64,000 nucleotides of DNA, taken from IMG/VR virus record IMGVR_UViG_3300042879_003514, positions 1 through 64,000 of that record. The stretch is one strand, 5' to 3'. Source of the DNA: a virus. The translations under genes and the position numbers were made by a program. Shown here one piece after another: positions 5,842 through 54,504 of this stretch. How positions within the stretch are numbered: the first letter of the stretch is position 1; every line of letters starts with the position of its first letter. The notes under the pieces were generated by a model. That model had not been told where the DNA came from. It did not search any database and saw only the letters and a list, made by a program, of their open reading frames with translations.

Positions 5842-6528
5842 ATGATACCAAATATTATTATTCAAGCTGGCGATGACATAAAATATAACAAAGTTATAGA
5901 ATATTATAAACTTAAATATTCTAATTATAAATATCAATATTTTATAGATTCCACAATTATTAATTATTTTCAAAATAACTTTGATCCATTTTTTCCTGAT
6001 ATAATAAATAAATTCAATCTATTAAAAGGGCCTCATAAAATTGATCTATTTAGATATTATTTTCTTTATAAAAATGGTGGTATTTATTTTGACACAGATA
6101 TGGAGTTGATATCTGATCTTAAAGAAATTATTGAAGATTTTGATCTCATAACAGTCATAACATCCTATAAGCGACACTTAGCAATGAATGGATTTATAGC
6201 GTGTATACCAAATCATCCTATAATATATAATGCTCTAGTCAATATATATAACTTCAATTATTCTATATCAAAAGACTATTTATATTTTTGTAGAAAATTA
6301 TATGTTTTTATAGATGAGTTTGATGAAAAAAATAAAATTAAATTACTTAATGAAAAATTTATAGGCAAAAAAACTGCGATCTCCGACACACGCCGCACAC
6401 ATATGTATCATCACTATAAAGATAAAAAAACACCATATAATAAATATGAACAATTTTTAAATTCATTATCCAAAGAAATTGAGACAGATGTTTGGGAAAA
6501 TGTATTTAATAATAAAGGAAATTACTAA
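5842..6528 (+). CDS. GT32-type glycosyltransferase (OCH1-like, DXD)
   Basis: The core matches the DXD sugar-transferase family GT32: KIDLFRYYFLYKNGGIYFDT, where the basic/acidic helix precedes the metal-binding DTD (residues 84-86), followed by DMELI. These enzymes move a sugar from a nucleotide donor to a glycan with retention of configuration. About 228 residues suits the soluble bacterial versions. The stop overlaps the next ATG (TAATG), coupling it to the cupin gene. The sugar specificity cannot be read from sequence. Confidence 0.85.
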   Translation: MIPNIIIQAGDDIKYNKVIEYYKLKYSNYKYQYFIDSTIINYFQNNFDPFFPDIINKFNLLKGPHKIDLFRYYFLYKNGGIYFDTDMELISDLKEIIEDFDLITVITSYKRHLAMNGFIACIPNHPIIYNALVNIYNFNYSISKDYLYFCRKLYVFIDEFDEKNKIKLLNEKFIGKKTAISDTRRTHMYHHYKDKKTPYNKYEQFLNSLSKEIETDVWENVFNNKGNY

Positions 6529-6902
6529 TGAATAAAATAGAAAAATATGATAAGTTATGGGGTTATGAGCTTTGGATAGAAAACAATACAGAATATTGTG
6601 GTAAACTTCTACACGTTATACCAGATAAACAATGTTCAGTCCATTATCACAAACTAAAAAAAGAAACTTTCTATGTTATAGACGGCTCTCTTATAATAGA
6701 ATATAGCGATGCTTTAATCAAGGATAAGTGGGAAAAAATGGAAGATATAAAAATATGTCAACTAAATAAAGGAGAAGCGTTTACTATTGATAGAAATATA
6801 GCTCATAGATTCTATACTGCTAATGATTCTTCATGTGATTTTATAGAAATATCTACTCATCACGATGAGAACGACTCATATAGGATAATTCAAAGTAAAT
6901 AA
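6528..6902 (+). CDS. Cupin-fold sugar-phosphate isomerase-like protein
   Basis: Single-domain cupin of 124 residues. The metal-binding first motif is CSVHYHKLKKETFYVIDGS (His-x-His, then Glu) and the second is the region ending IAHRFYT. The WGYELW opening is typical of the mannose-6-phosphate-isomerase-like cupins found beside nucleotide-sugar genes. It could isomerise or epimerise an activated sugar or simply bind one. Its place between GT32 and HAD genes supports a sugar role. Confidence 0.75.
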   Translation: MNKIEKYDKLWGYELWIENNTEYCGKLLHVIPDKQCSVHYHKLKKETFYVIDGSLIIEYSDALIKDKWEKMEDIKICQLNKGEAFTIDRNIAHRFYTANDSSCDFIEISTHHDENDSYRIIQSK

Positions 6903-6904
6903 TA

Positions 6905-7201
6905 ATGATTTATATAGTTGATATAGATAATACCATATGTCTAACTGTAGATAGCAACTACCAGTACTCTAGCCCTATGTATGAAAGAATAAATAAAATA
7001 AATTCTCTCTACAACTCCGGCCACACTATAATATATTGGACTGCCAGGGGTGCTAATTCTGGTAAAGACTGGAAAGATTTAACAGAGCAACAATTAAACG
7101 ACTGGGGTTGTTTAAGACACTCATTGATTATGAATAAACCTAAATATGATATATGGATAGATGATAAGGCAATAAATTCAAATACATTTTTTTATGATTA
7201 A
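6905..7201 (+). CDS. Small HAD-superfamily phosphatase
   Basis: At 98 residues this is a minimal HAD hydrolase. The nucleophile motif is VDIDNTI, motif II is YWTARG, and the distal acidic motif is DIWIDDKA. Such small HAD proteins are common in capsule and heptose clusters. In the ADP-heptose pathway a 7-phosphatase (GmhB) must act between the kinase and adenylyltransferase steps. This protein is shorter than GmhB and unlike its N-terminus, so that role is only an inference from position directly before the hldA-like gene. Confidence 0.75.
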   Translation: MIYIVDIDNTICLTVDSNYQYSSPMYERINKINSLYNSGHTIIYWTARGANSGKDWKDLTEQQLNDWGCLRHSLIMNKPKYDIWIDDKAINSNTFFYD

Positions 7202-7961
7202 AAATATTGCTGTAATAGGCGAATCGTGTGTTGATGAATATGTTTATGGCACTTGCGATAGAGTGTGTCCAGAAGCAGCGGCCTTGTGCTTCAAACATGA
7301 TTCTATAAAAACAATTAATATGGGCATGGCTGGTAATACGTTTAATAATATAAAAACCTTAAATAAAGAATCCAATATCGACCTAATAACTACTCAATCT
7401 CAAATAATTAAACGTAGATTCGTTGATAAAAGATATAATGCTATTATTTTTAGAGAAGATATCAATGATACTTGCGATAGAATCTCACTTAAAGATTATG
7501 ATTTTAGCAAATATGATTGCATAGTTTTTTCTGATTATTGCAAAGGGTTTTTACATGATGAGGACATTATTGATATTTGTACATTAAAAAATAACAAATG
7601 TATTACTTTTATGGATACTAAAAAGAAATTGAATCAATTTGTTCAGTACATAGATTTTATTAAAATTAACTCTAAAGAGTTTGCGACAAATGTTCTTGAC
7701 TTTAAAATGATTAATTCTCTTTGTTCTTTGATAGTAACAACTGGAGAAAATGGAGCTAACTTTTATCCAAAAGGTAATCCAGTATTCACAAATTATCCAA
7801 CTAAAAAGATTGAACTCAGAGATGTTTGTGGTGCTGGCGATACTTTCTTAGCCGCTCTAGTGACAGAATATATGAAATCTTTTGATATAGTTAAATCAAT
7901 TATATATGCCAATGATTGTTCTAGTAAGGTGGTTAGTCAATTCGGTGTGGTGACCCCTTGA
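7194..7961 (+). CDS. hldA: HldA-like heptose-7-phosphate kinase (PfkB family)
   Basis: Ribokinase/PfkB fold resembling domain I of RfaE/HldE. The N-terminal VIGESCVDEYVYG continues into a VCPEAA segment matching the PEAP motif of heptose kinases, and the C-terminal active site is DVCGAGDTFLAAL, with the catalytic Asp in GAGD. Such kinases phosphorylate D-glycero-D-manno-heptose 7-phosphate at C1. At 255 residues it is shorter than RfaE domain I (about 320), with several linkers trimmed. It overlaps both neighbours and is directly followed by the matching adenylyltransferase and epimerase, which supports the call. Confidence 0.8.
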   Translation: MIKNIAVIGESCVDEYVYGTCDRVCPEAAALCFKHDSIKTINMGMAGNTFNNIKTLNKESNIDLITTQSQIIKRRFVDKRYNAIIFREDINDTCDRISLKDYDFSKYDCIVFSDYCKGFLHDEDIIDICTLKNNKCITFMDTKKKLNQFVQYIDFIKINSKEFATNVLDFKMINSLCSLIVTTGENGANFYPKGNPVFTNYPTKKIELRDVCGAGDTFLAALVTEYMKSFDIVKSIIYANDCSSKVVSQFGVVTP

Positions 7962-8344
7962 AAATTATCTGGACTAATGGATGTTATGATATAGTACATA
8001 TTGGTCATATTAAATTATTTGAATATGCCAAATCTTTAGGAGATAAATTAATTGTTGGAATAGATTCAGATAAAAGAATAAAGTCTAGCAAAGGTGAATC
8101 AAGACCAATAAATAATGAACAATACAGGAAATTTATCTTAGAAAGCATCAGATTCATTGATGAGGTTGTTGTATTCGATACTTCTGATCAATTAGCTGAA
8201 CATATAAAAAATTTCAATATTGCAACTATAGTTGTTGGTGATGACTATAAAAACAAATACGTTATAGGCTCAGAATACGCTGACGTTATTTTCTTTCCAA
8301 AATTATCAAATATATCAACATCCAGTATACTAAAAAAAATATAA
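7958..8344 (+). CDS. hldC: HldC-like heptose-1-phosphate adenylyltransferase
   Basis: Cytidylyltransferase-like fold with the nucleotide-binding TNGCYDIVHIGHIKLFEYA (HxGH motif) and a closing ISTSSILKKI, as in domain II of HldE and in glycerol-3-phosphate cytidylyltransferases. 128 residues is the usual size for the stand-alone domain. The start is a TTG overlapping the kinase stop (TTGA). No ATG or GTG is available nearby. Together with the kinase it rebuilds the bifunctional HldE as two polypeptides. CTP rather than ATP use cannot be excluded from sequence. Confidence 0.8.
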   Translation: MKIIWTNGCYDIVHIGHIKLFEYAKSLGDKLIVGIDSDKRIKSSKGESRPINNEQYRKFILESIRFIDEVVVFDTSDQLAEHIKNFNIATIVVGDDYKNKYVIGSEYADVIFFPKLSNISTSSILKKI

Positions 8345-9210
8345 TGCAAATACTAATTACTGGATCATCTGGTTTTATAGGCTCTTGTTTATTTAATCAA
8401 TTAAAAAATGACAACAAGATATTTACTTCAGATTTTATAAATCTCAATAATAATGAATATCATATAAGTCCAGAAAATCTTGACGCAAATCTTCTTAGAC
8501 AAATGGACATAATTGTTCATCTTGGCGCTATTTCAGAAACAAATGCAGACAAAAAAGAAGAAATTTTTGAAAAAAATATACTATCATCTCTGAATATATT
8601 ACAAAATTCAAAAACTGATTGTAAAATTATTTATGCTTCTTCTGCATCTGTATATGGAACACAGAAGTCTTCCATTAAAGAAGAAGATAATCATGAATTT
8701 GGAACCAGCAGTTATGCACAATCTAAACTAATACTAGATAATATTGTTAGATCTTTTTTTAATCATAGAAATATAATTGGATTAAGATTTTTTAATGTAT
8801 GTTCTTTTAATAATGAGTCTCATAAAAAACAACCGAGTCCCACATACAAATTTTTACAACAACTAAAAACAGAAAAACAAATTAGATTATTTCACAACTC
8901 AAACTCTATATATAGAGACTTTATTTTTATAGATGATGTAATATCAATTATTAATTTTTTTATGTTTAATAACAGAGTCACAGAGGCTAATATTTTCAAT
9001 ATTGGATCTGGTATACCAGTCTCTTTTGAACAAATAGCAGACGAACTGATCAATAAAATAGGTTATGGTAAAAAAATCTATATTGATAAACCAAATAATC
9101 TAACGAATAATTATCAAGAGTATACTTGTGCAAACATAGAGAAACTTAGGAAATATGGCTATAAACAAAATATTCCATCAATTATAGAATATATAAAAAA
9201 TTATGAATGA
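8344..9210 (+). CDS. hldD: HldD-like ADP-heptose 6-epimerase
   Basis: Extended short-chain dehydrogenase with the NAD(P) motif TGSSGFIG at the N-terminus and catalytic Ser/Tyr-x3-Lys (YASSASVYG, then SYAQSKL). Beyond the generic fold it shares landmarks with HldD: HLGAISETNADK, the QPSPTYKFLQQL stretch, SIYRDFIFIDDV and NIFNIGSG. HldD inverts C6 of ADP-D-glycero-D-manno-heptose to the L-glycero form used in LPS cores. It is coupled to the adenylyltransferase by a TAATG overlap. A related nucleotide-sugar epimerase is the alternative. Confidence 0.8.
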   Translation: MQILITGSSGFIGSCLFNQLKNDNKIFTSDFINLNNNEYHISPENLDANLLRQMDIIVHLGAISETNADKKEEIFEKNILSSLNILQNSKTDCKIIYASSASVYGTQKSSIKEEDNHEFGTSSYAQSKLILDNIVRSFFNHRNIIGLRFFNVCSFNNESHKKQPSPTYKFLQQLKTEKQIRLFHNSNSIYRDFIFIDDVISIINFFMFNNRVTEANIFNIGSGIPVSFEQIADELINKIGYGKKIYIDKPNNLTNNYQEYTCANIEKLRKYGYKQNIPSIIEYIKNYE

Positions 9211-9589
9211 CCAAATTAACGAACAATTACAGATAATAGCATCTCAAATAAATTTTAACGATAAAAAAAGACTATTATTTATTGTACCAGAGAGTGCTGG
9301 AGACATATTTTTATGCACAAGCCTATTACCAAATCTTAAAATTATGTATCCTGATTTTGAAATTTATTTTTCGTGTTATCCTAGATATCAGTCAATACTA
9401 AAAAATAATCCAAACATAACCAAAGTTATAAATTATTATCCCGTGATGGACAATCAAATTATAATGGAGGGTACAGGAGAATGGTCAGGATTGTTTGATA
9501 TTAGTATAATGGCTACTACTCTAACACAAAGAATTATTAATTATTTACATAATGGACTTAGTCAAATTATGTTCGATATGAGGAACTAA
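9203..9589 (+). CDS. N-terminal half of a GT9 heptosyltransferase-like protein
   Basis: The 128 residues match the N-terminal Rossmann domain of GT9 (heptosyltransferase family): LLFIVPESAGDIFLCTSLLP, then KIMYPDFEIYF and a NPNITKVI segment. The frame ends at TAA 9587-9589, and an ATG in the same frame follows at once, opening the C-terminal half. Read together the two give about 312 residues, a normal GT9 length. It lies directly after the ADP-heptose genes, making ADP-heptose a plausible donor. Confidence 0.75.
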   Translation: MNDQINEQLQIIASQINFNDKKRLLFIVPESAGDIFLCTSLLPNLKIMYPDFEIYFSCYPRYQSILKNNPNITKVINYYPVMDNQIIMEGTGEWSGLFDISIMATTLTQRIINYLHNGLSQIMFDMRN

Positions 9590-10144
9590 ATGCACATTCT
9601 AGAAACATACGCTCTGCTGTCTGGATCAAAAATTAATAAATGTTTTATTGAAGAAGAAGTAATAGAGTTACCTAAAAATAAATATGTTACATTTCATCCC
9701 TTTAGTCCTAAAGGAAATAGTAGGCAGTATGATCATTGGAATATAGTTATAAGATCATTAATAAATAATAATTTTGAGTATGAAATAATTCAAGTAGGAG
9801 AATTATCTGATACTAAATATGATCACACCAATACCTCTTATCTTGGTAAAACAAATTATCATTCATTGGCTTATTTAATTAAAAATGCTAGTCTCCATTT
9901 AGGATATGATAGTCTGCCAATTCACTTGGCTTCTTATTATGATATACCAATAGTAGGCATTTACGCATGGTATGCAAAAAATTGTGGCCCATACTTCTCA
10001 TCTTCTAAAAAAGTAAAAATATTGGAACCAGATTTTACAAAGACAAAACCTACATATGGTGATACAGACCCATATAGATTAATAAATAATATTTTACCAG
10101 ATGATATATGTTTAGCTATAAATAGTTTACTAGGAATTAAATAA
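9590..10144 (+). CDS. C-terminal half of the same GT9-like protein
   Basis: In frame with the preceding ORF across a single TAA. It opens with MHILETYALLSGSK, which is mid-protein sequence in intact GT9 enzymes. It carries the donor-binding C-terminal signature NASLHLGYDSLPIHLASYYD with the conserved Asp-Ser and His-Leu-Ala. The TAAATG junction would allow termination-reinitiation, so the enzyme may be made in two pieces. Alternatively the TAA is a nonsense mutation or a sequencing error. Confidence 0.75.
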   Translation: MHILETYALLSGSKINKCFIEEEVIELPKNKYVTFHPFSPKGNSRQYDHWNIVIRSLINNNFEYEIIQVGELSDTKYDHTNTSYLGKTNYHSLAYLIKNASLHLGYDSLPIHLASYYDIPIVGIYAWYAKNCGPYFSSSKKVKILEPDFTKTKPTYGDTDPYRLINNILPDDICLAINSLLGIK

Positions 10145-10145
10145 T

Positions 10146-11087
10146 ATGAATATAAGTGTCAGACTTGAGGGCGGTCTTGGGGATTGTTTGTTGGGTAATA
10201 GGTTTGTTGCCGCAATTAAAGAAAAATATCCACAAGCATCTATTACAGCATACATTGATAGTGAAGGTAAGACTTTTCAAAAGGAAGCTCTGGAAAGTTT
10301 ATACCCATCTATGTATAAAGAAATAAAGATTATTCAATCAAAAAAATATAAAGAATTTTGGATAGATTGTCAATTTGGTGCAGATAACTATCATGGCGGC
10401 TTGGAGAACGTACCAGACGATATCTTGTCAGAAATGAAATCTTATGACAAATTTTATGATCTGCATATTGATTCTCTTAAATGGTTAGATTATGATTTTG
10501 ATTGGCTTAGATATTTTAAATATTTTCCTAGACCAGAAATTACTAACAATAGTAGTGAGGATTATATAGTATGTCATTTAGCTAGTGCAGCATCGGTTGG
10601 ACATAGACTAGACATATCTTATCTAAAAACATTATTAACAAAATTACATGATACTATAACGCAAAATATTTATTTAATCTCAACTGTAGAAACGAATCAT
10701 TTTTATGATTCTGTATCTCATCTCAGTAGAATGAAAATTTTTAATGGATCAATTAAAGATGTGTCATCTCTTATTTCAAATGCGAAGATGATGATATCAA
10801 CAGATAGCGGCTTTAGATACATTGCATATGGATATAGTATTCCTACAATAACGTATTCTCAGCAATCACCACACCCGTGCTTTGCCTTACCAAGCCATCA
10901 ATTAAGATGGTTAATGTTTCCTGAAACATGTTTTCCTTTAAATTTTGATGCTGATTTTATATGCGATTTAACACATAAGATTATTCACAATAATGGATAT
11001 ATATTATTACCATACTTACAGAATTTTGATTTACAAGCTGTTCGTAGAGTATATACCATAAATAAAGAAAAGACATTATTAAAATGA
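10146..11087 (+). CDS. GT9-like (GT-B fold) glycosyltransferase
   Basis: A second heptosyltransferase-like protein, 313 residues. The N-terminal RLEGGLGDCLLGNRFVAAI resembles the GT9 glycine loop and the C-terminal ISNAKMMISTDSGFRYIAYG the donor-site helix. Between them lies a poorly conserved linker. No membrane segment. ATGA overlap with the FkbM methyltransferase gene. It is more divergent from WaaC/WaaF than the split copy, so donor use is uncertain. Confidence 0.7.
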   Translation: MNISVRLEGGLGDCLLGNRFVAAIKEKYPQASITAYIDSEGKTFQKEALESLYPSMYKEIKIIQSKKYKEFWIDCQFGADNYHGGLENVPDDILSEMKSYDKFYDLHIDSLKWLDYDFDWLRYFKYFPRPEITNNSSEDYIVCHLASAASVGHRLDISYLKTLLTKLHDTITQNIYLISTVETNHFYDSVSHLSRMKIFNGSIKDVSSLISNAKMMISTDSGFRYIAYGYSIPTITYSQQSPHPCFALPSHQLRWLMFPETCFPLNFDADFICDLTHKIIHNNGYILLPYLQNFDLQAVRRVYTINKEKTLLK

Positions 11088-16646: not shown

Positions 16647-17900
16647 ATGAATTTCTCAATACCACCATATCTATATAATTTTAAAAAATTTGTCCCAGGC
16701 AAAACACAGATATGTTATTCTGGACCATTTTGGGATAATCTTGAAATTGAAGCAGCAATAGACAGCCTCTTACATGGTAAATGGATTACTGCTGGAGAAA
16801 AGGTAAATAAGTTTGAGTATGAATTTTCTAAAAGATTCAATACTTCTTATTCACACATGGTTAATTCTGGTTCTTCCGCAAATCTTATTCTAATAGCGGC
16901 CTTAAAAAAATATTTTGATTGGCAAGATAATGATGAAATAATTGTATCTCCTGTTGGATTTCCAACATCCATATCTACAATTTGTCAAAATAATCTAAAA
17001 CCTATTTTTATTGATATAGAATGGGATACTTTAAATTTTAATATAGATCTTATTGAACAAAAAATTTCTAAAAAAACAAAAGGTATTTTTGTATCTCCTG
17101 TTCTTGGTAATCCGCCAGATATGGATGCTTTAATAAAGCTATGTAATAATTATAATTTACAATTAATTGGAGATAATTGTGATAGCTTGGGTAGCAAATG
17201 GAAAGATAAATTTTTAAACGAATATTATGTAGCATTTTCAAATTCGTTCTATCCAGCCCATCACATATGCACTGGTGAGGGCGGTATGGTTTGCTCTAAT
17301 ATCGAAGAACTTAAGAAGTTATTTATGAGTCTTAGTTGGTGGGGAAGAGACTGCTACTGTGTTGGTAATGCCAATTTATTAGAGTGTGGAGTTTGTCAAC
17401 ATAGATTTGATAGATGGTTACCAGATTACAATGGAATTGTAGATCATAAATATGTGTTTTCAGAGATGGGCTATAATCTTAAGCCTCTAGATCTGCAAGG
17501 AGCTATAGGATTAGTTCAATTAAAAAAATTAGATACTATTGAGCACAATAGAAGAATTTCTAAGAATACAATTTCAACAATCTTTACTAAATATATTCCA
17601 GGAATATCAATTCCAAAAGTATTAGAACACTCAGACCCATGCTGGTTTGGAACACCGATTATCTGTGAAACTTTAGAACTCAAAAATAAATTAGTTCAAT
17701 TTTTAGAAAAAAATAAAATACAAACAAGAAATTATTTTGCTGGTAATATACTGATCCACCCCGGATACAAGTTTTTAGAAGATTATAAATTATATCCAGA
17801 AGCAAATAAAGTATTAGATAAAGTATTTTTTGTTGGAGCCTCTCCACATTATAATGAAGAAATTTTTCAATATATAGAGGATACTATTAAAAAATTATGA
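16647..17900 (+). CDS. rfbH: RfbH-like PMP-dependent sugar 3-dehydratase
   Basis: Fold type I aminotransferase relative (DegT/DnrJ/StrS) of 417 residues. The cofactor Lys is replaced by His in SFYPAHHICTGEGG (residues 200-213), the hallmark of the 3-dehydrases RfbH/E1 and ColD, which remove the C3 hydroxyl of 4-keto-6-deoxyhexoses instead of transaminating. It also keeps RfbH-type landmarks: a WWGRDCYC segment, DHKYVFSEMGYNLKP and QGAIGLVQL. Four Cys lie where E1 binds its 2Fe-2S cluster, but with CxC-x8-CxxC spacing unlike the RfbH spacing I recall. The product is a 3-deoxy sugar precursor. The electron donor is not visible here. Confidence 0.8.
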   Translation: MNFSIPPYLYNFKKFVPGKTQICYSGPFWDNLEIEAAIDSLLHGKWITAGEKVNKFEYEFSKRFNTSYSHMVNSGSSANLILIAALKKYFDWQDNDEIIVSPVGFPTSISTICQNNLKPIFIDIEWDTLNFNIDLIEQKISKKTKGIFVSPVLGNPPDMDALIKLCNNYNLQLIGDNCDSLGSKWKDKFLNEYYVAFSNSFYPAHHICTGEGGMVCSNIEELKKLFMSLSWWGRDCYCVGNANLLECGVCQHRFDRWLPDYNGIVDHKYVFSEMGYNLKPLDLQGAIGLVQLKKLDTIEHNRRISKNTISTIFTKYIPGISIPKVLEHSDPCWFGTPIICETLELKNKLVQFLEKNKIQTRNYFAGNILIHPGYKFLEDYKLYPEANKVLDKVFFVGASPHYNEEIFQYIEDTIKKL

Positions 17901-18604
17901 ATATAGTAATATTAGGAAATGGTATACTCGCCAAAGAAATAATTTCTCAAACTAATTGGCCTTCAATTTCTAGATCTAAAGATGGTTTTGAACTGATGGA
18001 TAGATCCACATACGCAAAATATTTATTAGAAATTTATCATGGAGTTATAGTTACAAGAAAATATGATGTTATTATAAATTGCATAGCCAATACAGATACT
18101 TATTCAGATAATAGGTCGCTACATTGGGATACAAATTACAGAGGAGTGATATTGTTGTCCGATTTTTGTGAAGAACATGATATTAAACTTGTTCATATTT
18201 CTACCGATTATGTTTATACAAATTCTGTTAATGAGGCTAGCGAAGAAGATATACCTATTCATGGAAATAATTGGTACAGTTATACCAAATTATTAGGAGA
18301 TAGTTATGCGCAATTGAATCCTAAAAATTTAATATTAAGAGGTACTCATAAACCATATCCATTCCCACATAAAGAAGCCTGGGTAGATCAAATTGGAAAC
18401 TTTGATTATATTAATAATATTGCTAATTTGATTGTAAAAGTTATACAAAAAAATGAAACTGGAGTGGTTAATATTGGAACTGAAATAAAAAGTATGTTCA
18501 CCTTGGCCTCAAAAACTAATCATGTTATTCCTAAATTTACTAATAATAATATTCCTAAAAATATTAGTATGAATATTAAAAAACTACAAAAAATATTAAA
18601 TTAA
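17897..18604 (+). CDS. RmlD-like nucleotide-sugar reductase (short-chain dehydrogenase)
   Basis: Rossmann protein with N-terminal ILGNGILAKEI, the NAD(P)-site strand DVIINCIANTDTY, the catalytic region VHISTDYVY and Tyr-x3-Lys in WYSYTKLLGD. These match RmlD/dTDP-4-dehydrorhamnose reductase-like enzymes, which reduce the 4-keto group of activated deoxysugars. At 235 residues it is shorter than RmlD (about 290), missing part of the substrate domain. It overlaps the RfbH-like gene by 4 bases, and the two steps would follow each other. Confidence 0.7.
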   Translation: MNIVILGNGILAKEIISQTNWPSISRSKDGFELMDRSTYAKYLLEIYHGVIVTRKYDVIINCIANTDTYSDNRSLHWDTNYRGVILLSDFCEEHDIKLVHISTDYVYTNSVNEASEEDIPIHGNNWYSYTKLLGDSYAQLNPKNLILRGTHKPYPFPHKEAWVDQIGNFDYINNIANLIVKVIQKNETGVVNIGTEIKSMFTLASKTNHVIPKFTNNNIPKNISMNIKKLQKILN

Positions 18605-49134: not shown

Positions 49135-50171
49135 TTACTTATTTTCGCAGTAGTTCTTTTAATACTCATAATATGTGCGAGCAGCAATATTTTTTTGAGT
49201 ATGTGCTAGGATGGAGAGGTCCGTCAAATCAAAAGGCCGACAAAGGGACTATTTGTCATAAAGTATTAGAAATTTTAGCAATTATAAAAAAGAATATTCA
49301 AGATGGTATACCAGAGTTTGAAGATGATTTAATTGGTAAAGTTAGTACAAATAACTATAATTTAGACAATATCATTGAATTAACATATAAATTTTATACA
49401 ACTAATTTTAATCATCATAAGTGGTCCGATAAAGATTTTAAAGATTGTAAATCATGGGTTTACAAAGCTATAGAATATAATAATCGAATGTTTGATCCAA
49501 GAAATAGAGACATATTATGTCCAGAACAACACTTCGATATACTAATCGAAAAACCTTGGGCAAAGTATAGTTATGATTCACCAGATGGTCTGCTAGAAGG
49601 ATACCTTGGTCTTAAAGGCACTATTGACCTTGTTACTAAAATAGATAACAATACTATAGAAGTGATAGATTGGAAAACCGGAAAAAGATTAGATTGGGCC
49701 ACAGGACAAGAAAAAACACCAGAGAAGTTACAAAACGATCCTCAGTTAATGATTTATTATTATGCTATAAGTCGTTTATTTCCAGAATACGAACATATCA
49801 TACTAACCATATATTTTATTAACGATGGTGGTGCGTTCTCAATATTATTTGATAAGAGCGACTTGCTAAGAACAGAAGAAATGCTAAGAAAGAAATTTGA
49901 AATAATAAAACAAACTAAAAAACCAAGGTTGCATCAAACATGGATGTGTAGTAAACTATGTCACTTCGGAAAAACAAGTTTCGCTGACACCCACATCACA
50001 CCAACTATTGAATATAGAGACAATCAACATTGTAAAAAAGATTCAATCATGACAAAGTGTGAACAAGTTAAGCATGATATAGAACTAAAAGGAATGAACG
50101 AAGTTATTAAAGAATATAGATATCATAACCACTCATTTGGAAAATATAAGGCACCCGGTAGCACAGAATGA
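49128..50171 (+). CDS. Cas4/RecB-like PD-(D/E)XK exonuclease, probable AUU start
   Basis: PD-(D/E)XK core: LKGTIDLVTKID then TIEVIDWKTGKRLDW, with the Asp, Glu/Asp and Lys of Cas4/RecB nucleases. The N-terminal family motif (Ser-rich segment, then Cys and Tyr) appears as ITYFRSSSFNTHN then MCEQQYFFEYVLGWRG, so part lies before ATG 49173. The frame is open back to 49116 but has no ATG, GTG, TTG or CTG there. ATT 49128 is 8 bases after AAAGGA, which makes an AUU start likely. Cys near the C-terminus could bind an iron-sulfur cluster, as in Cas4. Confidence 0.75.
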   Translation: MIITYFRSSSFNTHNMCEQQYFFEYVLGWRGPSNQKADKGTICHKVLEILAIIKKNIQDGIPEFEDDLIGKVSTNNYNLDNIIELTYKFYTTNFNHHKWSDKDFKDCKSWVYKAIEYNNRMFDPRNRDILCPEQHFDILIEKPWAKYSYDSPDGLLEGYLGLKGTIDLVTKIDNNTIEVIDWKTGKRLDWATGQEKTPEKLQNDPQLMIYYYAISRLFPEYEHIILTIYFINDGGAFSILFDKSDLLRTEEMLRKKFEIIKQTKKPRLHQTWMCSKLCHFGKTSFADTHITPTIEYRDNQHCKKDSIMTKCEQVKHDIELKGMNEVIKEYRYHNHSFGKYKAPGSTE

Positions 50172-52051
50172 AAAATTATAATCCTTTACATTGTCACTCA
50201 ATGTATTCTTTGCTAGATGGCTTATCTAAGCCGTCTCAAATAGCAGATCGTTGTCAAGAAATTGGAGCAACTGCATGTGCGTTAACAGATCACGGTTCAA
50301 TAGCCGGAGCTATTAAATTTCACAAAGAGATGACTAAGGTTGGAATTAAGCCAATTTTAGGTTGTGAGATTTATCTCTGTAAAGATAGTCCAAATATTCA
50401 AAGTAAAGAAAATAGACATTTAACACATTTTTTGGTATTGGCCAAAAACCTTGAAGGATGGAGAAAACTCATTGGTTTAGTTTCAGAGTCTAACCGTCCA
50501 GATTTTTATTATCACAAGCCCAGACTTGATCTGGAAAATCTAGGGAGGTTCTGCGACGGCAATTTGATTGGAATTTGTGGACATCTAGGATCGTTAATTG
50601 CAGATAATATAATAGATAATGGACAAATAATCTCAGACTGGAAAAACCAAGGAGAAAAAATTATTGGTCAATTAAGAGATATTTTTGGTAAAAATAATAT
50701 TTTTCTAGAATCCCAAATGATGGATCATATAAACACACCCATACAAAAAGAATTGACTGGTTGTATCAGAGAGCTTGGTAGAATAACAGACACTAAAATT
50801 ATTTGTACTCCAGATGCTCATTATGTTAGAAAAGAAGATGCCTCTGATCAAAGAATACTTTTGTGTAATAATCTAAAAACAACCATGCCTGAAATTAGTC
50901 GCAAGATCAATATGAACCAGCCGGTGCCAATGGACTGTTTTTTCTTATCAGATAATTTTCATATACTATCACAAGAAGAGATTAACAATCTTCACACAGA
51001 AGAAGAAATTGAAAATACACAGTTGGTTTCTAATATGTGCGAGTCTTACGATATAAATAGTAGACCAAGATTACCGCCATTTGATTGTAAACCAAACCCA
51101 GATGAGTTCTTAAGACAATTATGTAGAGATGGCTGGAGAGATAAGATAGCCAATAATATAGATAAGCAAAATCAACAAGAATATATAGATCGTATTAAAT
51201 ATGAATTAGATATTTTACAGGGGGCTGGTCTTAGTAGTTATTTCTTGATTGTGCAAGATATCGTGAACCATGTTAAAATGAACGACTGGCTACCCGGACC
51301 AGGAAGAGGATCTGCTGCTGGTTGTTTAGTTTCATATCTAATAGGTATAACTAATATTGATCCTATAAAATACAGTTTATTGTTTGATAGATTTTATAAT
51401 TCTGGTCGTAATACAAAAGATAGAGTTAGTATGCCAGATATTGATGTTGATGTACCAATAGAAAAAAGAGAAGACATTATTACGTATATTAAAAATAAGT
51501 ATGGTAATAATCAGGTTTCTCAGATGGTTACTTTTAATACGATTAAGGGTCGTGGTGCTATAAAGGATGTTCTCAGAGTTTATGGTAACATATCTTTTGA
51601 GGAAATGAATAGAATTACCAAAAATATACCAGACGAAGCTAAAATAGCAGACGAGTTGCAAGAAATGAAGGACGAATACGGCGAAGCCTCTATCATAAGA
51701 TGGGCTTTAGAAAACCAAGGAGAAAAACTCAAAGATTGGTGTCATATTGACGAAAATAATGAATTACAAGGACCACTTGCAAAAAGATTTGAGCAGGCTA
51801 TAAGATTAGAGGGTACTAAAGTTAACCAATCTAAACATGCCGCTGGGGTAGTTATAGCAGATACAGATTTGTCAACAATTTGCCCAACTATTTATGACAC
51901 AAAAACAAAAACAAAAATTGCTGGTATGGAAATGGAAGACTTAGAAAGTATTGGAATTGTTAAATTTGATATTCTAGGTGTTGCGATGCTGGATAAAATT
52001 ATGTATATTTCTAAATATCTTAAAGAAGGAGTTACAGATGAAATTTCATGA
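50168..52051 (+). CDS. dnaE: DNA polymerase III alpha, N-terminal half (PHP and catalytic domains)
   Basis: 627 residues. PHP domain: YNPLHCHSMYSLLDGLSKPS, ALTDHGSIAGAIKF. Catalytic palm: GPGRGSAAGCLVSYLIGI, MPDIDVDVP with two catalytic Asp (about 424 and 426), and the third Asp in VKFDILGV (about 601). The frame stops just after that, near the equivalent of E. coli residue 560, so fingers and the OB domain are absent. They appear in the ORF at 52906. All three catalytic acids are in this half. Confidence 0.92.
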   Translation: MKNYNPLHCHSMYSLLDGLSKPSQIADRCQEIGATACALTDHGSIAGAIKFHKEMTKVGIKPILGCEIYLCKDSPNIQSKENRHLTHFLVLAKNLEGWRKLIGLVSESNRPDFYYHKPRLDLENLGRFCDGNLIGICGHLGSLIADNIIDNGQIISDWKNQGEKIIGQLRDIFGKNNIFLESQMMDHINTPIQKELTGCIRELGRITDTKIICTPDAHYVRKEDASDQRILLCNNLKTTMPEISRKINMNQPVPMDCFFLSDNFHILSQEEINNLHTEEEIENTQLVSNMCESYDINSRPRLPPFDCKPNPDEFLRQLCRDGWRDKIANNIDKQNQQEYIDRIKYELDILQGAGLSSYFLIVQDIVNHVKMNDWLPGPGRGSAAGCLVSYLIGITNIDPIKYSLLFDRFYNSGRNTKDRVSMPDIDVDVPIEKREDIITYIKNKYGNNQVSQMVTFNTIKGRGAIKDVLRVYGNISFEEMNRITKNIPDEAKIADELQEMKDEYGEASIIRWALENQGEKLKDWCHIDENNELQGPLAKRFEQAIRLEGTKVNQSKHAAGVVIADTDLSTICPTIYDTKTKTKIAGMEMEDLESIGIVKFDILGVAMLDKIMYISKYLKEGVTDEIS

Positions 52052-52214
52052 ATTGCAGATAAATGCTAAGTTCAAACATAATGGCACTATTTATGTTAAA
52101 ATCCCAGCAGAAAAAGCAAACTGCTGTAAGACAACTGCTAATTGTCAAAATTGGGAAACAAAACAAAAGGCAAAAATATCACCAGAAGATGAAGTTGAAG
52201 AGGTACAATCCTAA
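52038..52214 (+). CDS. Small protein inside the split polymerase
   Basis: ATG 52038 has a clean AAGGAG (52026-52031) six bases upstream, inside the polymerase 3' end, and overlaps it by 14 bases. The 58 residues read as a small beta barrel: FHELQINAKFKHNGTIYVKI then Cys-rich KANCCKTTANCQNW, a design common in phage small proteins of unknown function. Its position between the two polymerase halves suggests co-expression. Confidence 0.7.
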   Translation: MKFHELQINAKFKHNGTIYVKIPAEKANCCKTTANCQNWETKQKAKISPEDEVEEVQS

Positions 52215-52220
52215 TTATTT

Positions 52221-52916
52221 ATGTTAACTAAAAAAATTTGTGTTTTTGATTTTGAAACTGATGGCTCTGATCCAGAATCATGTAGTCCTGTTCAATTAGC
52301 CGCAATCATGATTGATCCTGTCAAGTTAGAAATAATTGATGGATCAGAATTTAATGTTCATTGTAAGCCAGAAGTAATAGAAAAAAATCCCGACTATATT
52401 TATGAAACTGATATTATAGATTTTCATTCTAGAGTGAAAGGATGTAGTCAAGAAGATATTTATAAAGAGTGGAGACAATATCCTTCTCAACAAATAGCAT
52501 GGAATTCTTTTATTTCATATTTAGACAAGTATCATTGCTTTGGTAGAAAGAAAAAAAATATATTTACAGCACCTATAGCTGCTGGATATAATATTAATAG
52601 ATTTGATTTAAAAATTATCAATAGACTAAGCCAGAAATACAAGACTATTGAACCAAAAGAAAAAACATCATCTCTGTTTTATCCAAGAGATGTTCTTGAT
52701 ATTATGAATTTAGTTTTTTATTGGTTTGAAAGTTCGGATCTAAAAAGTTATTCTTTGGATACTGTTAGAGAATATCTTGGTATTTCAAAAGATGGTGCTC
52801 ACGATGCCTTGAAAGACGTTAAAGACTGTGCTATGATACTAACTAGGTTTATGAGATTGCACAGGAAATTATGTCCAAAAATTTCATTTAAAGGATCTTT
52901 TTTGAATGACGATTAA
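52221..52916 (+). CDS. DnaQ-like DEDDh 3'-5' exonuclease
   Basis: DEDDh landmarks in order: VFDFETDG (Asp10, Glu12), AGYNINRFDLKII (Asp) and GAHDALKDVKDC (His and Asp). 231 residues, soluble. Exonucleases of this class proofread replication. It overlaps the polymerase C-terminal half by 11 bases and lies between the two polymerase parts. The natural role would be epsilon-like proofreading for this split enzyme. Confidence 0.88.
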   Translation: MLTKKICVFDFETDGSDPESCSPVQLAAIMIDPVKLEIIDGSEFNVHCKPEVIEKNPDYIYETDIIDFHSRVKGCSQEDIYKEWRQYPSQQIAWNSFISYLDKYHCFGRKKKNIFTAPIAAGYNINRFDLKIINRLSQKYKTIEPKEKTSSLFYPRDVLDIMNLVFYWFESSDLKSYSLDTVREYLGISKDGAHDALKDVKDCAMILTRFMRLHRKLCPKISFKGSFLNDD

Positions 52917-54504
52917 GTTTAATTGCGGTTGTGAATTCAATAGTAATAGTGATAGTAAATTACATATTGATTATGATATAAATAAAATAAAGTTTGATTG
53001 CCCAAAAACTTGGGATATGATTTCTGAAGGAAACACTAAAGGTGTTTTTCAATTAGAGTCTAGGTTAGGGCAGAGTATGGCTAAAAAACTTAAGCCCGAA
53101 AATATTGAGCAATTAGCCGCGCTAATTAGTATCATGAGACCGGGTTCTCTAGAAGCTTTTAGAGAAGGTAAAAGTGTTAGTAATCATTATATAGACAAAA
53201 AGAATGGTCAAGAAAGTCTTGATTATTTTCATCCTACATTAGAGCCATGTTTAAAGGCTACTTATGGAGAAATGATTTATCAAGAACAGGCTATGGAAAT
53301 TGCCAAAGTGGTTGCTGGATTTGATCTACAAGAAGCTGATATGTTAAGAAAAGCTATTGGTAAGAAAAAACCAGAAGAAATGGCCAAAATCAAAAATAAA
53401 TTCATTAGCGGATGCAATAATCTTGGCAAGGTTACTAATAATGAAGCGGAGCAGTTGTTTGGTTGGATAGAAAAAAGTCAAAGGTATTCATTTAATAAAA
53501 GCCATGCTGTTAGTTATGCTGTAAATGCCTTTATGTCCGCTCATGCTAAGGCTCATTTTCCTACTATCTTTTTCTTATCATATCTTAGACTAGCCAAAGA
53601 TAAAATAGATCCTCAAGAAGAAATTCTTGAATTGATCATTAATGCTAAGTCTATGGATATAGATATTTTTTGTCCCACTATGGTGCTTAAAAATAAAGAT
53701 TTTAAAATTCAAAATAAAAAGATATATTTTGGATTAACTAATATCAAGGGTGTTGGTCAATCTGTGTTTGATAAATTATATGGAATTATTGCCGATATAG
53801 ATTTAATTAAATACACTTGGAGCGAAACATTATTTTATATATTATTAAATATTAATTCGACAGCAGCCAAAGCATTGATTCAGTCTGGTGCGTTAGATTA
53901 CTTAAAAGTCTCAAGAAATCAAATGCTATATGAGTTTAATCTGGTCTGCGAACTGACAAAAAAAGAAACTGAAAATACAATTAAATTAATCAAAGATAAT
54001 CCAAAATTACAAATCATTGAGTTAATAAGGCAGTTAATCGCTAATACCAAAATTTCTAAGAATAGACAGCAAAAAGTCCTAAGTATAGTTAATCAACTAT
54101 CAGAACCACCATATTCTCTTGTAGATAGTCCAGAATGGATATCTGATAACGAAAGAGAATTACTGGGTGCTCCAATAACCTGTACTAAAACAGATTCTTA
54201 TGATTCATCATACGCAAATACTGATTGTAAAGATATTCGTAATTTTCCAGATACTAAACAGTTTTTTATTATAGCAGAAATTCAATCTGTTAATATTATT
54301 GTAACTAAGCGTGGAAGATCTCCTGGAAAAGAAATGTGTTTTATACAAATATCAGACTCTTATGGCAGTCTAGATTGTGTATTATTTCCAGAAGAATTTG
54401 CCGAGAATAAAGCATTATTACAGGCTGGTAGAGTATTGATGTTTAATGGACAGAAGTCAAAAAAGGATAGTTCTGTGATCATAAAAAAAATCTTTGTTGT
54501 ATAG
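52906..54504 (+). CDS. dnaE: DNA polymerase III alpha, C-terminal half (fingers and OB domains)
   Basis: 532 residues. An opening CGCEF and a Cys in FDCPKTWDMIS lead to TKGVFQLESRLGQSMAKKL and IMRPGSLEAFREGKS. Then fingers with ADMLRKAIGKKKPEEM and KSHAVSYAVNAFMSAHAKAH. The C-terminus holds an OB-like segment (FFIIAEIQSVNIIVTKRG then DCVLFPEEFAENKALLQAGR). It complements the half ending at 52051, so the holoenzyme is probably two polypeptides. No intein splice signals are seen. Confidence 0.9.
   Translation: MTIKFNCGCEFNSNSDSKLHIDYDINKIKFDCPKTWDMISEGNTKGVFQLESRLGQSMAKKLKPENIEQLAALISIMRPGSLEAFREGKSVSNHYIDKKNGQESLDYFHPTLEPCLKATYGEMIYQEQAMEIAKVVAGFDLQEADMLRKAIGKKKPEEMAKIKNKFISGCNNLGKVTNNEAEQLFGWIEKSQRYSFNKSHAVSYAVNAFMSAHAKAHFPTIFFLSYLRLAKDKIDPQEEILELIINAKSMDIDIFCPTMVLKNKDFKIQNKKIYFGLTNIKGVGQSVFDKLYGIIADIDLIKYTWSETLFYILLNINSTAAKALIQSGALDYLKVSRNQMLYEFNLVCELTKKETENTIKLIKDNPKLQIIELIRQLIANTKISKNRQQKVLSIVNQLSEPPYSLVDSPEWISDNERELLGAPITCTKTDSYDSSYANTDCKDIRNFPDTKQFFIIAEIQSVNIIVTKRGRSPGKEMCFIQISDSYGSLDCVLFPEEFAENKALLQAGRVLMFNGQKSKKDSSVIIKKIFVV

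Follow-up and report, generated by a model that had tools for sequence, protein, structure and literature searches.

A putative five-gene ADP-heptose operon in a viral genome, with a cupin as candidate sedoheptulose-7-phosphate isomerase

The DNA analyzed in this work (the window) is a stretch of 64,000 nucleotides, that is, bases 1-64000 of the 95,302-base IMG/VR virus record IMGVR_UViG_3300042879_003514, and it embeds a group of genes that appear to be devoted to the synthesis of ADP-heptose. The original prediction, made from the letters of the window, claimed that HldA-like, HldC-like and HldD-like genes are adjacent and overlapping at 7194-9210; the open reading frames (ORFs), their common direction and the family profiles agree with this, the kinase (7194-7961), the HldC-like gene (7958-8344) and the HldD-like gene (8344-9210) all lying on the plus strand with overlaps of 4 and 1 bases. 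The HAD phosphatase noticed just upstream of the kinase is also present, as a plausible phosphatase of 98 amino acids (aa) at 6905-7201 whose ORF overlaps the kinase by 8 bases. However, the unit is larger than the three heptose genes initially recognized, and comprises five genes from 6528, including a cupin and the HAD:

6528..6902, plus strand: cupin, 124 aa, proposed GmhA-replacing sedoheptulose-7-phosphate isomerase (PF07385, Cupin_2, phrog_7851; putative function).
6905..7201, plus strand: minimal HAD phosphatase, 98 aa, proposed heptose-1,7-bisphosphate 7-phosphatase (phrog_1238, 90.6 bits; putative function).
7194..7961, plus strand: HldA-like PfkB kinase, 255 aa (TIGR02198, 109 bits; phrog_8133, 206 bits; GAGD motif invariant).
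7958..8344, plus strand: HldC-like nucleotidyltransferase, 128 aa, TTG start (TIGR02199, 111 bits; TIGR01518, 91 bits; phrog_7878).
8344..9210, plus strand: HldD-like ADP-glyceromanno-heptose 6-epimerase, 288 aa (TIGR02197, 193 bits; 1eq2 as top profile match).

We are fairly confident that the region 6528-9210 represents a five-gene operon for the production of ADP-heptose, the starting compound being sedoheptulose 7-phosphate, which is a metabolite common in hosts. The cupin, in place of GmhA, would isomerize sedoheptulose 7-phosphate, the PfkB kinase would make the 1,7-bisphosphate, the small HAD would take off the 7-phosphate, the HldC-like enzyme would add the nucleotide, probably from ATP, and the HldD-like enzyme would epimerize C6; the resulting ADP-heptose would supply the glycosyltransferases of the surrounding glycan cluster. 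All the substrates, as well as the destination of the sugar, are inferred. The order of the steps is the same as in the bacterial ADP-L-glycero-D-manno-heptose pathway (GmhA, HldA/HldE, GmhB, HldC, HldD), with which the kinase, the nucleotidyltransferase and the epimerase are homologous; however, the phage set is devoid of a SIS-fold GmhA, harbors a 98-residue HAD instead of GmhB, and has the kinase and the transferase on separate short proteins.

As had been predicted, the comparison of the kinase and of the epimerase with profiles and solved structures placed both of them in heptose families, no other sugar family being preferred. Indeed, among the NCBIfam profiles the kinase scored 109 bits with TIGR02198, while the specific non-heptose family that ranks next reached 38, and the kinase profile retrieved the solved HldA 4e84 with an E-value of 1.5e-26 (next, 1.7e-11); the phage kinase proteins are about 60 residues shorter, and the score is under the curated equivalog cut-off (109 vs 345 bits). 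The epimerase reached 193 bits with TIGR02197 (curated cut-off 274.6) vs 64 with galE, and the profile built on the window and cyanophage members retrieved E. coli HldD (1eq2) at 1.6e-60, the best non-HldD structure being at 2e-22; the alignment to 1eq2 revealed that the YxxxK motif is maintained, as are the residues HK from the EGHK loop of HldD. In the case of the HldC-like protein, TIGR02199 is the top model, under its cut-off of 181.5 bits. Scores below the cut-offs are to be expected of divergent phage proteins, and the data support, beyond chance, the assignment of the three core enzymes as putative divergent members of the HldA, HldC and HldD families. The 91 bits that the HldC-like protein scores with TagD (TIGR01518) and its nearest solved relatives, which are cytidylyltransferases, would also fit the idea that the nucleotidyltransferase and the kinase serve some other activated polyol or sugar (e.g., a CDP-glycerol-like one), the likeness to heptose enzymes being at the family level only; we consider this idea highly improbable, given that TIGR02199 outscores TagD, that the correspondence extends over five genes and that an HldD-like epimerase is present. 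The HldC-like protein does not possess the STTR5 motif (F/L)XXGRSTT, the window sequence reading ISTSSI at the end, with the arginine absent, and the cyanophage ones mostly YSTT or YSST. In the commentaries, the STTR5 arginine is tied to the use of CTP/UTP, and the motif is described as not strictly needed for nucleotide promiscuity (PMC11461863). The lack of this arginine leads us to expect ADP-heptose as the product.

Concerning the third step, residues D6, D8, T46, K78 and D87 of the small HAD are invariant in 49/49 sequences and represent the full set of HAD catalytic motifs (DxD, T, K, D). The annotation as phosphoheptose isomerase found in phrog_1238 and in the labels of the records is ruled out by these complete phosphatase motifs. 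No match was found between the 98-aa HAD and the GmhB models (HAD-IIIA, TIGR00213/PRK08942), GmhB 3l8h being retrieved by Foldseek with an E-value of 0.03. The nearest solved structure is 9iqw, that is, AfhF, the D-arabinose 1,5-diphosphate phosphatase of phage HY126, which is likewise a HAD of minimal size and shares 33% identity with the window protein in the structural match; by analogy with it, a role in the conversion of the bisphosphate to the 1-phosphate is plausible. The same relative might suggest that the whole module makes, by the same logic, an activated pentose (e.g., NDP-D-arabinose), for instance for DNA hypermodification, and the HAD family is indeed widespread in Escherichia and Acinetobacter phages. 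However, apart from the cyanophages, the phages in which close relatives of the HAD occur, those of Escherichia and Acinetobacter included, gave no kinase or cupin match; moreover, the HldD-like enzyme targets the heptose C6, which is absent in a pentose, the kinase and epimerase profiles pick heptose enzymes by a wide margin, the cupin accompanies canonical HldD and GmhB in Patescibacteria (see below), and no cytosine-modification gene was recognized by eye among the ORFs of the window, where no systematic search was made. In our opinion, a pentose product is thus very unlikely.

The first step of an ADP-heptose pathway is the one for which the original prediction invoked an isomerase supplied from elsewhere in the host or phage. 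This does not appear to be supported: looking for GmhA elsewhere in the genome revealed no SIS_2/GmhA-type isomerase (TIGR00441/PF13580) in the 95,302-base record, which may itself be incomplete, and the best candidate is the cupin, not listed at the time, located directly upstream of the HAD. The cupin matches a part of the D-lyxose isomerase profile PF07385 with 24.9 bits (gathering score 20.8) and Cupin_2 with 31.5; its AF2 model has a pLDDT of 97, and a profile built on 64 relatives retrieved 2y0o and 7nzo, both D-lyxose isomerases, among its best solved matches, with a coverage longer than that of the other top hits. The reaction of D-lyxose isomerases, between a ketose and a manno-type aldose, is of the same chemical kind as that of GmhA. 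The cupin residues K26, H39, H41, K44, E46, H93, E107 and E114 align with K62, H75, H77, K86, E88, H143, E156 and D163 of the Thermofilum enzyme, in a mapping of our own through the 7nzo alignment (7nzo numbering offset 24), with residue roles taken from PMC8378251; at least 63 of the 64 cupin sequences keep each of the seven active-site residues that are identical, 63/64 have D or E at position 114, and D-lyxose isomerase mutants at the equivalents of K86, E156 and D163 have been reported to be inactive (PMC8378251). The phage cupin and the D-lyxose/D-mannose isomerases (2y0o, 7nzo; PF07385) have in common the fold, the active-site residues and, putatively, the manno-type ketose-aldose chemistry; they differ in that the former is shorter, is linked to sugar-phosphate genes and possesses the extra invariant residues W11, G12, D116 and R119. 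Phrog_7851 and the labels of the records call the cupin a cysteine dioxygenase, and a putative cysteine dioxygenase is also found among its structural matches; this assignment was rejected, in that the Pfam sequence matches and the solved structures favor isomerases.

The association of these genes is not limited to the window. A tblastn search with the kinase retrieved 31 phage records (about 14 distinct phages), all of cyanophages or marine single-cell viruses, and all 31 are also among the 35 cupin-positive records of cultured phages. In the loci inspected, the kinase, the HldC-like gene, the small HAD and the cupin are clustered, mostly together with the epimerase, in a variable order and orientation; the closest relative of the window phage (locus L096) has the identical order cupin-HAD-kinase-HldC. 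No recognized HldD lies beside the cassette in Sf-CH8 and S-T4, so that the epimerase seems to be optional. No SIS_2 match was found in 50 viral records with a kinase or a cupin, and the cultured-phage records with kinase and cupin include none of the 13 phage records that bear GmhA. A transketolase-like gene was also observed near the kinase in S-SM2 and P-TIM68 (L003:3422-4630 and L004:7768-8913).

A link also exists with the GDP-heptose pathway, which shares heptose 7-phosphate with the ADP route but uses a GHMP kinase and an NTP_transferase, whereas the set of the window uses a PfkB kinase and HldC. Four records harbor the cupin with no PfkB kinase match. In Bellamy, the cupin is located between a GHMP kinase (best model HddA, 279 bits, cut-off 600) and an HddC-like gene, the best model for the nucleotidyltransferase being HddC (62 bits, cut-off 300) and its neighbor a GDP-mannose-dehydratase-like gene; the region L289:6552-10350 of Bellamy appears to be a GDP-heptose set (HddA, cupin, HddC, RmlD-like, Gmd-like). 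HddA homologs were found in ten of the fetched loci: eight, including the IMG/VR copy of Bellamy itself, score more than 500 bits and stand beside the cupin, and the remaining two (L021 and L192) less than 100 bits. A cupin serving both the ADP and the GDP routes would be best explained if it is the source of the shared heptose 7-phosphate.

Further evidence comes from cellular relatives, in which we considered as strict cupins those scoring 130 bits or more. In Patescibacteria, bacteria with tiny genomes in some cases, 12 genomes have a fusion between a strict cupin and HldA (the cupin being at the N-terminus in 10, at the C-terminus in 2) and one more has the two genes adjacent; the fusions are generally followed by GmhB or HldC. 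In the class of genome G303, 10 of 353 genomes possess a strict cupin, in all ten as the N-terminal part of a cupin-HldA fusion. In samples of 137 and 380 genomes, those with HldA by profile were 21. The 15 without a strict cupin all harbor GmhA (103-226 bits), mostly beside HldA, and in one of the genomes (G264, L286:6136-7743) a GmhA-HldA fusion parallels the cupin-HldA ones; five of the six with a strict cupin (five fused, one adjacent) have no GmhA beyond GlmS-sized ORFs. The exclusion between cupin and GmhA gave a Fisher p of about 3e-4, including the one exception and ignoring relatedness. A Levyibacteriota operon (L180) encodes HldA-cupin, HldC-GmhB, an HldD of 401 bits (cut-off 275) and, in addition, a GT9-like protein, which corresponds to the standard pathway with GmhA alone missing. 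Diverged cupins were also observed in three Woesearchaeota loci (L188, L191 and L194), in two of which (L188 and L194) enolase-like and PRPP-synthetase-like genes were recognized by eye nearby.

Taken together, the lyxose-isomerase residues, the HldA fusions, the exclusion of GmhA and the HddA/HddC context of Bellamy point to the cupin as a putative sedoheptulose-7-phosphate isomerase, that is, a non-homologous replacement of GmhA. One might speculate that the core enzymes do make ADP-heptose, the isomerization being performed by the GmhA of the host, and that the cupin takes part in a later epimerization or ketoisomerization, or in regulation, within the glycan cluster; the variety of cupins in sugar clusters (e.g., CapF) and the many viral cupin loci without either kinase in the fetched flanks are in agreement with such a role. 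We regard it as rather unlikely, because the cupin is fused to HldA in both orders with GmhB or HldC following, a clear GmhA is lost where the cupin is present, the lyxose-isomerase active site is conserved, and the ADP and GDP routes, to both of which the cupin is tied, have no later sugar-nucleotide intermediate in common.

Several observations weigh against a cupin-type isomerase working in a heptose module. The Foldseek search with the cupin also matched CapF, oxalate decarboxylase and others, cupin folds being promiscuous, so that the fold alone is not decisive, and the nearest solved relative of the HAD (AfhF) works on arabinose and not on heptose. Genome G426 has a cupin fusion together with a 90-bit SIS protein on another contig, and in locus L192 the same cluster contains both a cupin and a GmhA-like SIS. 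The genomes sampled are not phylogenetically independent and most assemblies are incomplete; contigs of 1.24 and 0.82 Mb are present in two genomes with the cupin. Some archaeal cupins of the wider family lie beside unrelated genes and none near heptose genes. Finally, 17 of the 39 kinase-bearing viral records, which are fragments, have no cupin match, and 28 cupin loci have neither kinase (PfkB or HddA type) inside 8 kb; thus, the linkage is not universal in viruses. A further weak point was observed in loci L098 and L108, where a phage kinase belonging to this family stands beside other sugar dehydratase/epimerase-like genes, with neither a cupin nor HldC.

With these data, we regard as probable that phages and some Patescibacteria possess a cupin-type sedoheptulose-7-phosphate isomerase representing a second, non-homologous route to the committed step of ADP-/GDP-heptose synthesis, which together with the mini-HAD would complete a phage pathway possibly heptosylating parts of the virion in hosts with a heptose-free lipopolysaccharide (LPS). 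Viral heptose enzymes and the cyanophage cassette are already known, and the type of gene cluster present in the window is not new in phages. Indeed, the same families are clustered in the cassette of T4-like cyanophages (P-SSM2, S-SM2, S-SSM7, S-CAM1, S-CAM3, P-TIM68, Sf-FS3; T4-GC 304-308), although the window phage belongs to a different lineage and its five genes are contiguous and in one direction. In the cyanophage records, the cupin carries the label of cysteine dioxygenase or nucleotidyltransferase and the HAD that of phosphoheptose isomerase; these labels find no support in the data presented here. According to excerpts of the commentaries (PMC11461863, PMC11573728), Tang et al. (Science 2024) reported and assayed viral heptose nucleotidyltransferases among cross-kingdom NDP-heptose enzymes, and viruses are described as lacking the phosphatase; neither the cupin nor the mini-HAD figures in those excerpts. 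In the openly accessible literature searched, we found no paper linking a cupin to the GmhA-type isomerase step, and the cupin-type isomerase appears to be undescribed there. GmhA catalyzes the committed heptose step and is a proposed target for antibiotics (PMC5387315, PMC11056994), and ADP-heptose is also an ALPK1 agonist (PMC11461863). If the proposal were correct, the non-homologous isomerase would represent a novel family of enzymes, and it would supply the first step that is missing from Patescibacteria and from the cyanophage cassettes, whose present labels are unsupported.

With regard to the destination of the heptose, in the window the cassette sits among glycosyltransferase, methyltransferase and sugar-nucleotide genes, the nearest being:

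5842..6528, plus strand: glycosyltransferase with DXD sugar-binding region, immediately 5' of the cupin (PF04488, 45.7 bits).
9203..9589, plus strand: GT9-like N-terminal half, closed by an in-frame TAA (TIGR02201, 22 bits, residues 23-76).
9590..10144, plus strand: GT9-like C-terminal half, same frame, ATG straight after the stop (PF01075, 30.7 bits).
10146..11087, plus strand: distant GT9-like protein (weak), 313 aa (PF01075, 13.5 bits, under cut-off).

The gene following the epimerase, which its first ORF overlaps by 8 bases, had been described as a GT9 protein; actually, it consists of two ORFs (9203-9589 and 9590-10144) parted by a TAA, and the GT9 assignment holds weakly (PF01075, 31 bits) for the second half only. 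The GT9-like region 9203-10144 might be either split or disrupted, the in-frame TAA at 9587-9589 being followed by an ATG, and no homolog exists in the fetched loci. In other phages, the cassette is near tail-fiber genes (P-SSM2, S-CAM1, S-CAM3) or beside neck genes (S-SSM7, Sf-FS3), and the LPS of Synechococcus WH8102, the host of Sf-FS3 and Sf-CH8, has been reported to lack heptose and KDO (PMC4515613). On this basis, it is a reasonable guess that the phage heptose is used for heptosylating virion parts, a modification of the host surface being the alternative; the reportedly heptose-free LPS of WH8102 makes the purpose of the phage heptose directly testable. Homologs of the GT9, FkbM and GT32 genes of the window revealed nothing consistent beside the cassette in the fetched loci, so that the acceptor could not be guessed, and the neighbors of the P-SSM2 cassette (T4-GC 299-302) neither match any Pfam family nor have a known function in PHROG.

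Other features were observed at a distance from the cassette. At 16647-18604 of the window, an RfbH-like protein of the DegT family (358 bits) precedes an RmlD-like reductase, which suggests the synthesis of another deoxy-sugar nucleotide. No close named relative indicating the host was found for the DNA polymerase III alpha of the window, which at 50168-54504 is encoded by two ORFs, the first for the PHP and NTPase part and the second for the finger part, separated by the gene of an RNase_T exonuclease. Lastly, in L001:12256-16779 and L002:3-5117 there are two large ORFs, each matching tail tape-measure families.
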